64,000 nucleotides of DNA. Source: Prochlorococcus sp. AG-409-P19. Lineage in GTDB: Bacteria; Cyanobacteriota; Cyanobacteriia; PCC-6307; Cyanobiaceae. Below, piece by piece: positions 5,641 through 48,710 of this stretch. Location of the stretch: contig QCKO01000002.1 in assembly GCA_003215315.1 (NCBI GenBank), positions 1-64,000 of the forward strand. Direction: 5' to 3'. The position numbers and the translations under genes were made by a program. How positions within the stretch are numbered: the first letter of the stretch is position 1; each line of letters starts with the position of its first letter. Under the pieces are notes generated by a model. That model saw only the letters and a program-made list of their open reading frames with translations, was not told the origin of the DNA and did not search any database.

Positions 5641-5945
5641 GACACCTAAGTTTTCCACAGAACCTCTTGACTATTTTACTTAATCCCAGGAAGGAACAGC
5701 CTTTTCAATAAAAAAGACCCTAGGTATGGTGTCCTTCGGGCCTGGGTGATGGGGATCTTATTTTTAGCCCCTTTTCCCGAATAAATCAACCCCTACTAGA
5801 TGTAGGGTCTGTGGAAACATCTGATTGTGTAATTACCTCTATTTAGTTGCCTAATTCCATTGTTGTGACTAATATCTTGCCAAAGCCGGGTGATGGGGAT
5901 CAATCGGTGAAAAACACTAGCCCTCATAAAGAGGGTTTTTTTATT
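5641..5945 (+). ncRNA. Putative structured ncRNA, copy A of a ~300-nt duplicated element
   Basis: ~95% identical to reverse complement of 48409-48710; long-range pairing AGACCCTA/TAGGGTCT; two GGGTGATGGGGATC motifs; terminator CCCTCataaaGAGGGTTTTTTT; no conserved ORF seen. Confidence 0.65.
5921..5942 (+). terminator. Rho-independent terminator of copy A element
   Basis: CCCTC-ATAAA-GAGGG followed by T7. Confidence 0.8.
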
Positions 5946-16408: not shown

Positions 16409-18118
16409 TTAAAGCAATAGATATCTCTGTGCAAGAGGTAAAGATTCAGCTGGTTCACAAGTTAAAAGCTCGCCATTTGCAAAGACCTCATAAGTTTGAG
16501 GATCAACTTCTATTTTGGGCCTTGCATAATTGAGTTTCATTGATCTTTTGGATATATCTCTTGTGTTTTTTACAGCAGCACAAGATCGTTCTAATTTAAG
16601 TTTTTCCGGCACACCTGCGTTGATAGCAGATTCACTTAAGAATGTGAGGGAGCTTGTATTTATAGCTTTCCCAAAGGCGGAAAACATTGGTCGACCATGC
16701 ACTGGTTGAGGTGTAGGTATTGAGGCATTAGCATCTCCCATTTGTGCCCATGCAATAGATCCCCCTTTAACTACTAAATCTGGTTTTATCCCAAAAAAGC
16801 CTGGTTTCCAAAGTACTAAGTCAGCGAGTTTACCAACTTCTATAGAGCCAACATGACTACTGATTCCATGCGCTATTGCAGGATTAATAGTCACCTTTGA
16901 GATGTATCTTTTAATACGATGATTATCATTCCTCTCATTATCTTCTGGTAAAGAACCTCTTTGAATTTTCATTTTATGAGCAGTTTGAAATGTTCGACTA
17001 ATTACTTCTCCAACTCTTCCCATCGCTTGAGAGTCACTGGCGATAATAGAAAATGCTCCTAGGTCGTGGAGTATATCTTCAGCGGCAATAGTTTCACGAC
17101 GTATTCTTGATTCGGCAAATGCAACATCCTCAGGAATTTTTGGATCCAAGTGATGGCATACCATCAACATGTCTAAATGCTCTTCTAGAGTATTTAGTGT
17201 GTATGGTCTAGTAGGATTTGTACTGCTGGGAATAACATTAGATTCTCCACATATTTTGATAATGTCAGGAGCATGTCCGCCTCCAGCTCCTTCAGTATGG
17301 AAGGTATGAATTGTTCTTCCTTGGATTGCGCGAATTGTATCTTCGACAAACCCAGCTTCATTTAAGGTATCTGTATGAATACAAACTTGTACATCTAGTT
17401 GATCTGCAACAGTTAGGCAAGAATCAATACAAGCTGGTGTTGTCCCCCAGTCTTCGTGAAGTTTTAAACCACAAGCACCTGCTCTGACTTGTTCTTCTAG
17501 TGCAGATTTATTAGTTGCATTCCCTTTGCCAAAGTAACCCAAGTTAACTGGAAAGCCTTCTGCAGATTGAAGCATTCTTGCAATGTGGAATGCTCCAGGA
17601 GTACATGTTGTTGCATTAGTACCAGTAGCTGGACCTGTTCCTCCTCCTAGCATTGTTGTAACTCCACTAGCTATAGCTGTTTCTATTTGCTGTGGGCAAA
17701 TAAAATGAATGTGACTATCAATAGCTCCTGCTGTAATAATATTTCCTTCTCCAGCGATAGCTTCTGTACTAGGCCCTACAATTATATTTACACCTTGTTG
17801 AGTATCTGGGTTCCCAGCTTTTCCAATCCCTGAAATTTTTCCATCTTTAATGCCAATATCAGCTTTTACAATTCCCCACCAATCAAGAATTAGTGCATTA
17901 GTTATTACTGTATCAACTACTCCATTATCTCTAATTTGTTGTGATTGCCCCATGCCATCGCGAATAACCTTGCCTCCTCCAAATTTAACTTCGTCTCCAT
18001 ATTGAGTATGATCTTGTTCAACTTCGAGAATTAACTTGGTATCGGCAAGTCTAATGCGATCCCCTTTTGTAGGGCCATAAGTCTCAGCATAAGCTTGACG
18101 AGAAATTTTAAAAGGCAT
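16409..18118 (-). CDS. ureC: Urease alpha subunit
   Basis: 569 aa; [26 protein letters not shown] urease active-site signatures. Confidence 0.99.
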
Positions 18119-33528: not shown

Positions 33529-33548
33529 TGTTTTTCTTCTATAACGCC

Positions 33549-33574
33549 CAAGTCCCCGTTCCATGGCTTGAGTC
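33549..33574 (-). promoter_or_regulatory. Conserved 26-bp leader of DUF4278 gene (copy 1)
   Basis: GACTCAAGCCATGGAACGGGGACTTG, identical to 34926-34951, 20 nt upstream of ATG. Confidence 0.6.
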
Positions 33575-34279
33575 TTACTGCGGCTTCTAATTAGCTGAAC
33601 GTGCAAAAATTATATATGAATACATTGGATTTATGTAGTTCTGGTTGATACATTCATCAATAAAAAAAATCCTGGAAACTATTCGTTTCAATTTTCAGTT
33701 ATTCGCCATTTAGGTACTATCTATACAGAGAAAAAGTTCCCTAGTAGAGTTCCTTTTAATAAAAGGCTTTCAGAAAAATGAGATTTAGAGCTATTTTCGC
33801 CAACAATTCTATAACTGTGGATAATTAATCAAACCTAAGTTTATAAAGACTTGACTTTTACTATCAAGAAACAAGACTAAATTCAAGTCAGTCTTTTTTT
33901 TAATATTTGCTGAGGCTTGCTTATGAGGAATTAGTTGATTTAATAAAGTATTCGCAAATAATTGAATGAAAAGCATCAGAGATCGAATCAATGATCATTT
34001 GCCAATAGTTTTGCAATTGCTTAGCACTGTTTCATTAGTGGCAATTGCCTTGTCTGCAATATGCGGTTCTCAATCCTTGAAGGAATTGGCAGGGTCTCAT
34101 AATATAGATGGGACTGAAGAGTTTCATAGAGACCACAATCATTGATTTAACCTTTATAAAAAGGATAATAATATTTAGAGCTATAAACGAAGAAAAACAA
34201 ATAAAGGAAAAGTTAAGACTGAATATAGAAAGTCTAATAAAAGCTGAATGGGTTTATAATAAATTAAAAGGGATTTTTC

Positions 34280-34906: not shown

Positions 34907-34925
34907 TGTAGGATCCTTCGTTGCT

Positions 34926-34951
34926 CAAGTCCCCGTTCCATGGCTTGAGTC
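34926..34951 (-). promoter_or_regulatory. Conserved 26-bp leader of DUF4278 gene (copy 2)
   Basis: Identical to 33549-33574; 19 nt upstream of ATG. Confidence 0.6.
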
Positions 34952-35098
34952 GATCTGCAGCTCGCATTGCGACGAGTGAACGTTTTCAGTAGCAGTTGCT
35001 ACAAAGTAATTATATAAGCCTGTGAATTTTTCCTGTAGTTCAGTTTGATACAAATAATTGATCTTTTTATAATCAGCTAAACGCTCTGTCAAATAGTT

Positions 35099-47481: not shown

Positions 47482-48003
47482 CTAAGCCGTTGCAACTGAA
47501 GACCTAGCTTTTCTTGCTCGCCTGGCAGGCCTACCAGCAACTGCTTTAGCTATACGCTTAGCAACAGAACTCTTTGCGGTAGTTGCTTTTTTTGTTTGAG
47601 CGGAAGCTACTTTTTTAACTACAGATTTAACTTTAGCTGTTTTTACAGTTGCCTTAACGGTCCGTTTAGTAGCTGGCTTTTTAGCAATAGTAGTTTTCTT
47701 AGATGTAACACCCTTACGAGTGCGATGAGACAGGATTAAGGCCCACTCCTCTGCACTAATATTGGCTGGCTTGTTGCCATGAACCTCAGAGATTTTTGCA
47801 GCCTTTTCTATGTCTTTAATAAGGTTTTTCCAAGATGCTGCATAACGCTTATCAGACTGGGATTTCGCACCACTCTCTACAAGTGTTTCAACCACTTGCG
47901 AGGCAGTTACCTTCTTACGTCTTCTGTTAAAGATTTCCTTTTGCAACGTGGCGATCATTGCATCGCCTTTTGCACTAACTTTGATGGTTAATTGAGACAT
48001 CAA
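47482..48003 (-). CDS. Protein with histone H1-like Lys/Ala-rich C-terminal tail
   Basis: N-terminal ~100 aa domain plus KKTTIAKKPATKRTVKATVKTAKVKSVVKKVASAQTKKATTAKSSVAKRIAKAVAGRPARRARKARSS. Confidence 0.75.
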   Translation of the reverse strand: MMSQLTIKVSAKGDAMIATLQKEIFNRRRKKVTASQVVETLVESGAKSQSDKRYAASWKNLIKDIEKAAKISEVHGNKPANISAEEWALILSHRTRKGVTSKKTTIAKKPATKRTVKATVKTAKVKSVVKKVASAQTKKATTAKSSVAKRIAKAVAGRPARRARKARSSVATA

Positions 48004-48214: not shown

Positions 48215-48349
48215 TCATCGATCTGAGCTTTTATCTAAGCCTTGTGCTTTACGGTTTGCAGAAACGCCTGCGAAGCCTATTCCAAGAAAAAACAAATAGA
48301 AGATGACAGTACCTCCTAGTACAGCTCCAACCACTAGAAAAGGGTTCAT
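48215..48349 (-). CDS. Small single-TM protein
   Basis: MNPFLVVGAVLGGTVIFYLFFLGIGFAGVSANRKAQGLDKSSDR*; ORF track extends to 48409. Confidence 0.55.
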   Translation of the reverse strand: MNPFLVVGAVLGGTVIFYLFFLGIGFAGVSANRKAQGLDKSSDR

Positions 48350-48408
48350 GTGATTTGCTCCTTTGAAGTAATCATCATTTATATTCGCTGATCGATTATA
48401 AATTTCCA

Positions 48409-48710
48409 ATAAAAAAACCCTCTTTATGAGGGCTAGTGTTTAACACCGATTGATCCCCATCACCCGGCTTTGGAAAATATTAGTCACAACAATGGAATTA
48501 GGCAACTAAATAGAGGTAATTACTCAATCAGATATTTCCATGGACCCCACATCTAGTAGGGGTTGATTTATTCGGGAAAAGGGGCTAAAAATAAGGTCCC
48601 CATCACCCAGGCCCGAAGGACACCATACCTAGGGTCTTTTTTATTGAAAAGGCGGTTCCTTCCTGGGATTAAGTAAAATACTCAAGAGATTCTGTGGAAA
48701 ACTTAAGTGG
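48409..48710 (-). ncRNA. Putative structured ncRNA, copy B of the ~300-nt duplicated element
   Basis: Reverse complement ~95% identical to 5641-5945; about 14 substitutions by eye; same terminal hairpin plus T tract. Confidence 0.65.

Follow-up and report, generated by a model that had tools for sequence, protein, structure and literature searches.

Each copy of a duplicated element in the Prochlorococcus sp. AG-409-P19 window (the whole stretch of DNA analysed, 64,000 nt) probably carries two divergent short RNA genes, a left one whose product would block translation of the sigma factor gene rpoD4 and a right one whose product would capture the left RNA. Computational support was obtained for the two predicted genes, their strands, their conservation, their complementarity to rpoD4 and the co-occurrence of the left RNA with the matching rpoD4 sequence.

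Organisation of the duplicated element

Copy A (5641-5945, plus strand) and copy B (48408-48709, minus strand) are inverted relative to each other in unrelated flanking DNA and are 95% identical over approximately 303 nt, in agreement with a preliminary description of the region. The window belongs to a draft genome (G000; 35 contigs, 67% complete). A search of Rfam 15 gave no family at or above gathering score at either copy, and phage records contained no match to the element. BLASTN detected relatives in 74 of the 199 related genomes, commonly at two to five places per genome; several paralogues occur in strains that include (presumed strain names) NATL2A, SS120, MIT9313 and marine Synechococcus, and the family is also present in high-light strains.

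When aligned, the relatives share one order: AAAAAA and a 5' hairpin come first, the motif GGGTGATGGGGA follows, and beyond a variable middle part the motif recurs in a second hairpin ahead of a terminator. In copy A the motif GGGTGATGGGGATC stands exactly where it was first noticed (5744-5757 and 5888-5901), and the intrinsic terminator ascribed to the element was located at its right end (5920-5942). A second terminator, overlooked in the preliminary description, is present at the left end on the minus strand (AAAAAAG..., read as ...CTTTTTT). Since the mismatches of the 5' hairpin on the plus strand are A.C, that is, G.U on the minus strand, this hairpin is most readily interpreted as an intrinsic terminator on the minus strand. 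For the left hairpin, a comparison of minimum free energy between the strands was uninformative, and pairs were counted instead: read on the minus strand, 58 distinct hairpins contained 30 G.U versus 5 A.C, and a non-redundant alignment 15 versus 1.

Comparison across relatives thus supports a reading of the element as two divergent short RNA genes between outward-facing terminators, and the single structured transcript of about 250-300 nt originally envisaged is not supported, on three grounds: the G.U/A.C counts assign the left hairpin to the minus strand, promoter-like columns are conserved on both strands and point outward on both sides, and the full 300-nt fold was no better than that of shuffled sequences (z of -0.43 and -0.33 for the two copies). 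The predicted features are as follows.

5706-5757, minus strand: copy A left sRNA (anti-rpoD4), about 52 nt, 5'-GAUCCCCAUCACCC-AGGCCCGAAGGACACCAUACCUAGGGUCUUUUUUAUUG; predicted 5' end, to within a few nucleotides
48595-48646, plus strand: copy B left sRNA (anti-rpoD4), 5'-GGUCCCCAUCACCC...
5882-5944, plus strand: copy A right sRNA (putative rpoD4 target mimic), about 63 nt, with GGGTGATGGGGATC at 5888-5901 and terminator at 5920-5942; predicted 5' end
48409-48471, minus strand: copy B right sRNA (putative target mimic), with motif at 48452-48465 and terminator at 48411-48433
5760-5766, minus strand: copy A left -10-like TAAAAAT, proposed from conservation in relatives
5784-5789, minus strand: copy A left -35-like TTGATT, 17 nt from the -10
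5847-5852, plus strand: copy A right -35-like TTGCCT, conserved columns
5870-5875, plus strand: copy A right -10-like TAATAT, 17 nt from the -35
48563-48592, plus strand: copy B left promoter-like pair, TTGATT (48563-48568), 17 nt, TAAAAAT (48586-48592)
48477-48505, minus strand: copy B right promoter-like pair, TTGCCT (48500-48505), 17 nt, TAATAT (48477-48482)
5791-5807, no strand assigned: palindrome CCCTAC-ATCTA-GTAGGG just upstream of the left -35, possible operator

Upstream of the left RNA, relatives carry on the minus strand TTGATT or TTGCAT, about 17 nt, TAGAAAT or TAAAAAT, and then UCCCCAUCACCC; the -10-like variants preceding CCCC are TAGAAAT, TAAAAAT and TATAAAT. A TTGCCT-17-TAATAT-like pair is likewise conserved on the plus strand upstream of the right hairpin, and the spacer is 17 nt in all four promoter-like pairs of the window. 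A strict sigma-70 consensus scan returned no promoter in copy A or B, and the promoters are therefore proposed from conservation among relatives. Palindromes of the type ACACCA..TGGTGT occupy the matching place in relatives, and those close to the left promoter possibly form a shared operator.

Of the structures suggested earlier, the pairing of AGACCCTA with TAGGGTCT to close a domain fails in relatives, where the 5' arm belongs to another covarying hairpin and the 3' arm is variable. The proposed TGAT-GGGG-ATC mini-hairpin failed at the first motif, with variable bases following GGGGA; at the second motif the loop was conserved. The AGACCC/GGGTCT domain suggested earlier was thus not conserved. 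A pairing between m1 and the conserved AUCAACCCCC was dropped when this stretch turned out to be the -35 region of the minus strand.

The best-surviving alternative, which we nevertheless consider unlikely, is that the element is one plus-strand structured RNA of roughly 260-305 nt, a Prochlorococcus homologue of Yfr103 with a structural or protein-binding role. Yfr103 is an abundant non-coding RNA of 290-328 nt that has seven paralogues in Synechococcus CC9605 and has been described from NATL, SS120, MIT9313 and many Synechococcus; a palindrome at -29 to -58 is conserved (PMC5069720). By comparison of descriptions, the two are alike in copy number, in occurrence in similar strains of marine picocyanobacteria, in the length of about 300 nt, and in a palindrome, those upstream of the left RNA lying near the place of the Yfr103 palindrome. 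Yfr103 is, however, described as a single RNA, whereas two RNAs of about 52 and 63 nt are predicted here; the full-length fold and the minus-strand nature of the left hairpin speak against a single long RNA, and the element family occurs in high-light strains outside the published Yfr103 list.

The predicted left RNA and its conservation

The predicted left RNA consists of the 5' sequence GAUCCCCAUCACCC followed by a covarying terminator hairpin at its end. Covariation, a check proposed in the preliminary description, was seen on the minus strand for the left hairpin and on the plus strand for the right one. For the left stem (alignment A4, in which the seed was partly fixed by the sequence-selection procedure) 92.4% of cells were paired, compared with 19-69% when the alignment was slid, and 33 double changes were counted versus at most 9. 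An own terminator, a conserved single-stranded seed and a covarying hairpin are the features looked for in a trans-antisense RNA, and the left RNA has all three.

Model R2, built for the left RNA, matched copy A at 5711-5756 (minus strand, E 3.0e-12) and copy B at 48596-48641 (plus strand, E 3.3e-12). It matched 256 of the 272 family genomes that are at least 90% complete, mostly with E-values of 1e-8 to 1e-14, although weak matches to the antisense strands of rpoD4 and of the right motif probably make the counts per genome too high. Reversed patterns, used as a control, yielded almost no matches; a 14-mer scan of the genome contigs was too loose to be informative. By these model matches the predicted left RNA is near-universal in the family. 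In many genomes it is found without a right RNA nearby, and lone left-RNA genes were identified in G350 (972142, plus strand), G110 (709572, minus strand) and G064 (1182336, minus strand), which we take to be WH7803, MIT9313 and RCC307, respectively.

Complementarity to the rpoD4 start region

In this genome, NATL2A and MED4, the only place of GGGUGAUGGGGAUC outside the elements is over the rpoD4 start codon. GGTGATGGGGA is a rare sequence, which G000, G032 (presumably NATL2A), G019 and MED4 each have in the elements and at one other site. In the three genomes where the non-element site was read (G000, G032 and MED4), it lies over a start codon, as AGGAGGCCAGGGTG-ATG-GGG-ATC, in a gene of the RpoD/SigA family (TIGR02997). 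The MED4 gene carries both published primers for PMM1697 (PMC2921402), which identifies it as rpoD4. In MED4 it lies at 1632707 (plus strand), and elements were placed at 772354 (plus strand), 936743 and 348879 (both minus strand). Since GGGUGAUGGGGAUC is confined in these genomes to the elements and the rpoD4 start, the left RNA probably acts in trans as an antisense RNA against the start of rpoD4 translation, and the right RNA would copy the target site.

The 14-nt 5' end of the left RNA can pair perfectly with the rpoD4 start region, after which come one mismatch and then GGCC. The predicted seed-target energy was -29.2 kcal/mol, against -20.1 for the best of the non-element tiles (6396 tiles, 64-kb window), and the co-fold gain was -20.6 against -16.2 for the best of 394 random tiles. 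The 14-mer match was intact in rpoD4 of 20 genomes examined. Co-occurrence was assessed in 54 genomes in which the rpoD4 start could be read and the presence or absence of the left RNA was clear, an rpoD4 match being scored at a seed energy of -14 or lower: such a match was present in 36 of 37 genomes with a strong left RNA and in 5 of 17 without (Fisher's exact p = 2e-7, a value that ignores shared ancestry). Genomes that lack the left RNA thus tend to have lost the matching rpoD4 sequence, and losses within genera, as in G367 (GATAGAG) and G270 (GATGGCG), agree in direction. Four genomes (G075, G084, G293 and G089) have kept the full rpoD4 seed match without a strong left-RNA match. The functional trans-acting RNA postulated in the preliminary description is well supported by comparison. 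The 3' end of 16S rRNA, considered as a target of GGGUGAU, was set aside once rpoD4 had been found.

MED4 has five sigma factors, one principal and four of group 2, the latter including rpoD4 (PMM1697), the transcript of which cycles daily (PMC2663038) and rises on nitrogen depletion (PMC2758279). PMM1697 was earlier a predicted target of Yfr1 (PMC3142192), and searches of open-licence papers found no report of an sRNA against rpoD4.

The right RNA as a probable target mimic

The right RNA would present GGGUGAUGGGGAUC in a hairpin that covaries on the plus strand (alignment A3; 91.4% paired versus 13-50% when slid). Its conserved loop is GGUGAUGGGGAUC, and the rpoD4 start likewise combines a 16-nt loop with a short stem. 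The identical 14-mer of the rpoD4 target is present in the right RNA, which is predicted to pair with the left RNA, the co-fold of the two reaching -56.2 kcal/mol compared with -31.2 kcal/mol apart. The idea that the G-rich loops contact C-rich RNA is supported, the C-rich partner being encoded on the opposite strand of the element itself and the loop sequence also being that of the rpoD4 start-codon region. From sequence identity and arrangement, the right RNA is most likely a sponge, or target mimic, of the left RNA.

A different role for the right hairpin was given rather less credence than the Yfr103 reading: the left RNA would be real, but the GGGUGAUGGGGAUC hairpin would be a shared protein or ribosome site, and the right RNA would titrate that factor and not the left RNA. 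The occurrence of the motif in several mRNA leaders as well as in the right RNA, and the resemblance in loop and stem to the rpoD4 start, are in accordance with such a site, yet it leaves unexplained why an exactly complementary divergent RNA co-occurs with the rpoD4 sequence. That the complementarity is a mere by-product of an element derived from a copied rpoD4 leader and now in unrelated use is improbable, for all the likeness of the right hairpin to the rpoD4 start region, given that the left RNA stands alone in many genomes, that its hairpin covaries, and that the rpoD4 match tends to vanish when the left RNA is lost.

In the target-mimic interpretation that we prefer, the single-stranded 5' end GAUCCCCAUCACCC of the left RNA, followed by its terminator hairpin, would pair in trans with the part of the rpoD4 mRNA that holds the ribosome-binding site and the start codon (5'-GGCCAGGGUG-AUG-GGGAUC), and would most likely block its translation. 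The hairpin loop of the right RNA, offering the same target sequence, would most likely capture the left RNA and relieve the repression. Transcription, the start sites, the repressive direction of the effect and the sponge role are all inferred. A broader proposal, that the element is a duplicated self-contained cassette of antisense RNA and start-codon mimic, divergent from one centre, in which the ratio of the two RNAs sets RpoD4 translation across marine picocyanobacteria, is put forward tentatively, at somewhat less than an even chance.

Relation to known systems

Short RNAs that pair with each other through near-complementary conserved motifs and compete for mRNA targets have been described in MED4, namely Yfr1/Yfr10 and Yfr2, and Yfr10 genes adjoin Yfr2 genes (PMC6778093, PMC2518516). 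These would be the nearest functional parallel, as two short RNAs able to pair that act in strains without Hfq, which MED4 lacks (PMC6202907). The sequences differ, and the element was therefore not assigned there: the left RNA carries CCCCAUCACCC and not the Yfr1/Yfr10 motif ACUCCUCACAC, and the right RNA, with its loop GGUGAUGGGGAUC, does not carry the Yfr2 5' motif GUGUGUAGGAG, which is a near-complement of Yfr1 (PMC2518516). A Yfr2-type identity, prompted by size and near-complementarity to Yfr1, was rejected likewise, as the motif differs. Unlike in these systems, the genes described here diverge inside a single cassette that is itself duplicated, their motifs are exact complements, and rpoD4 appears to be the target.

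Sponges that capture an sRNA by offering a pairing site are known from enterobacteria (for example, SroC for GcvB), whereas here the proposed sponge and its sRNA would form a divergent pair that was duplicated together. In Escherichia coli, the trans-encoded DsrA, RprA, ArcZ and OxyS act on translation of rpoS; the sigma factor is a different one here, and the predicted pairing covers the start codon directly. Marine cyanobacteria may thus tune a sigma factor by an RNA plus its own decoy. Protein regulators are few in Prochlorococcus and marine Synechococcus, and a near-universal RNA at a sigma-factor start codon would, if confirmed, connect RNA directly with global transcription in the most abundant phototrophs, with the divergent sRNA and mimic forming a simple ratio switch.

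Additional loci and copy history

Targets beyond rpoD4 are likely, judging from the motif hairpin in a DUF565-gene leader and before a small ORF. At ten Synechococcus loci (L256, L257, L262, L263, L265, L268, L269, L273, L274 and L278), a DUF565 gene, apparently one and the same throughout (one protein was checked), has the GGGTGATGGGGATC hairpin in its 5' UTR. The hairpin adjoins a palindrome and TATACA, and in several genomes it lies opposite a C-motif terminator of the upstream gene. At a NATL-type third locus (L170, L005 and L013), the motif hairpin precedes a small ORF (MNLGLLFLESVSTGVITSEEMNW...), and the motif recurs about 530 nt after the first, before a terminator.

Copy patterns in G092, with nine matches to the 5' domain in a single genome, and in G097, with two near-identical direct copies 2.3 kb apart, suggest recent amplification. 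The gene adjoining copy B (47482-48003, minus strand) is approximately 95% identical over 98 aa to its element-side counterpart in other genomes of the genus, yet copy B is closer to copy A than to the elements beside that gene in those genomes, which suggests gene conversion between copies A and B. A small ORF starting MNPFLVVGAVLGGTVIFYLFF begins at 48349 and runs downwards on the minus strand, about 60 nt past the right terminator of copy B, and a read-through leader is possible there. Just beyond the left terminator, TTTTCCACAG is found at 5651-5660 (plus strand) and 48692-48701 (minus strand), and is kept in nearly all copies of the genus and in the genome taken as SS120; it resembles a cyanobacterial DnaA box. 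Other Rfam matches in the window were two Glutamine-II riboswitches (33547-33604 and 34924-34985, both minus strand) and a 5' ureB sRNA at a urease gene (17677-17963, plus strand).
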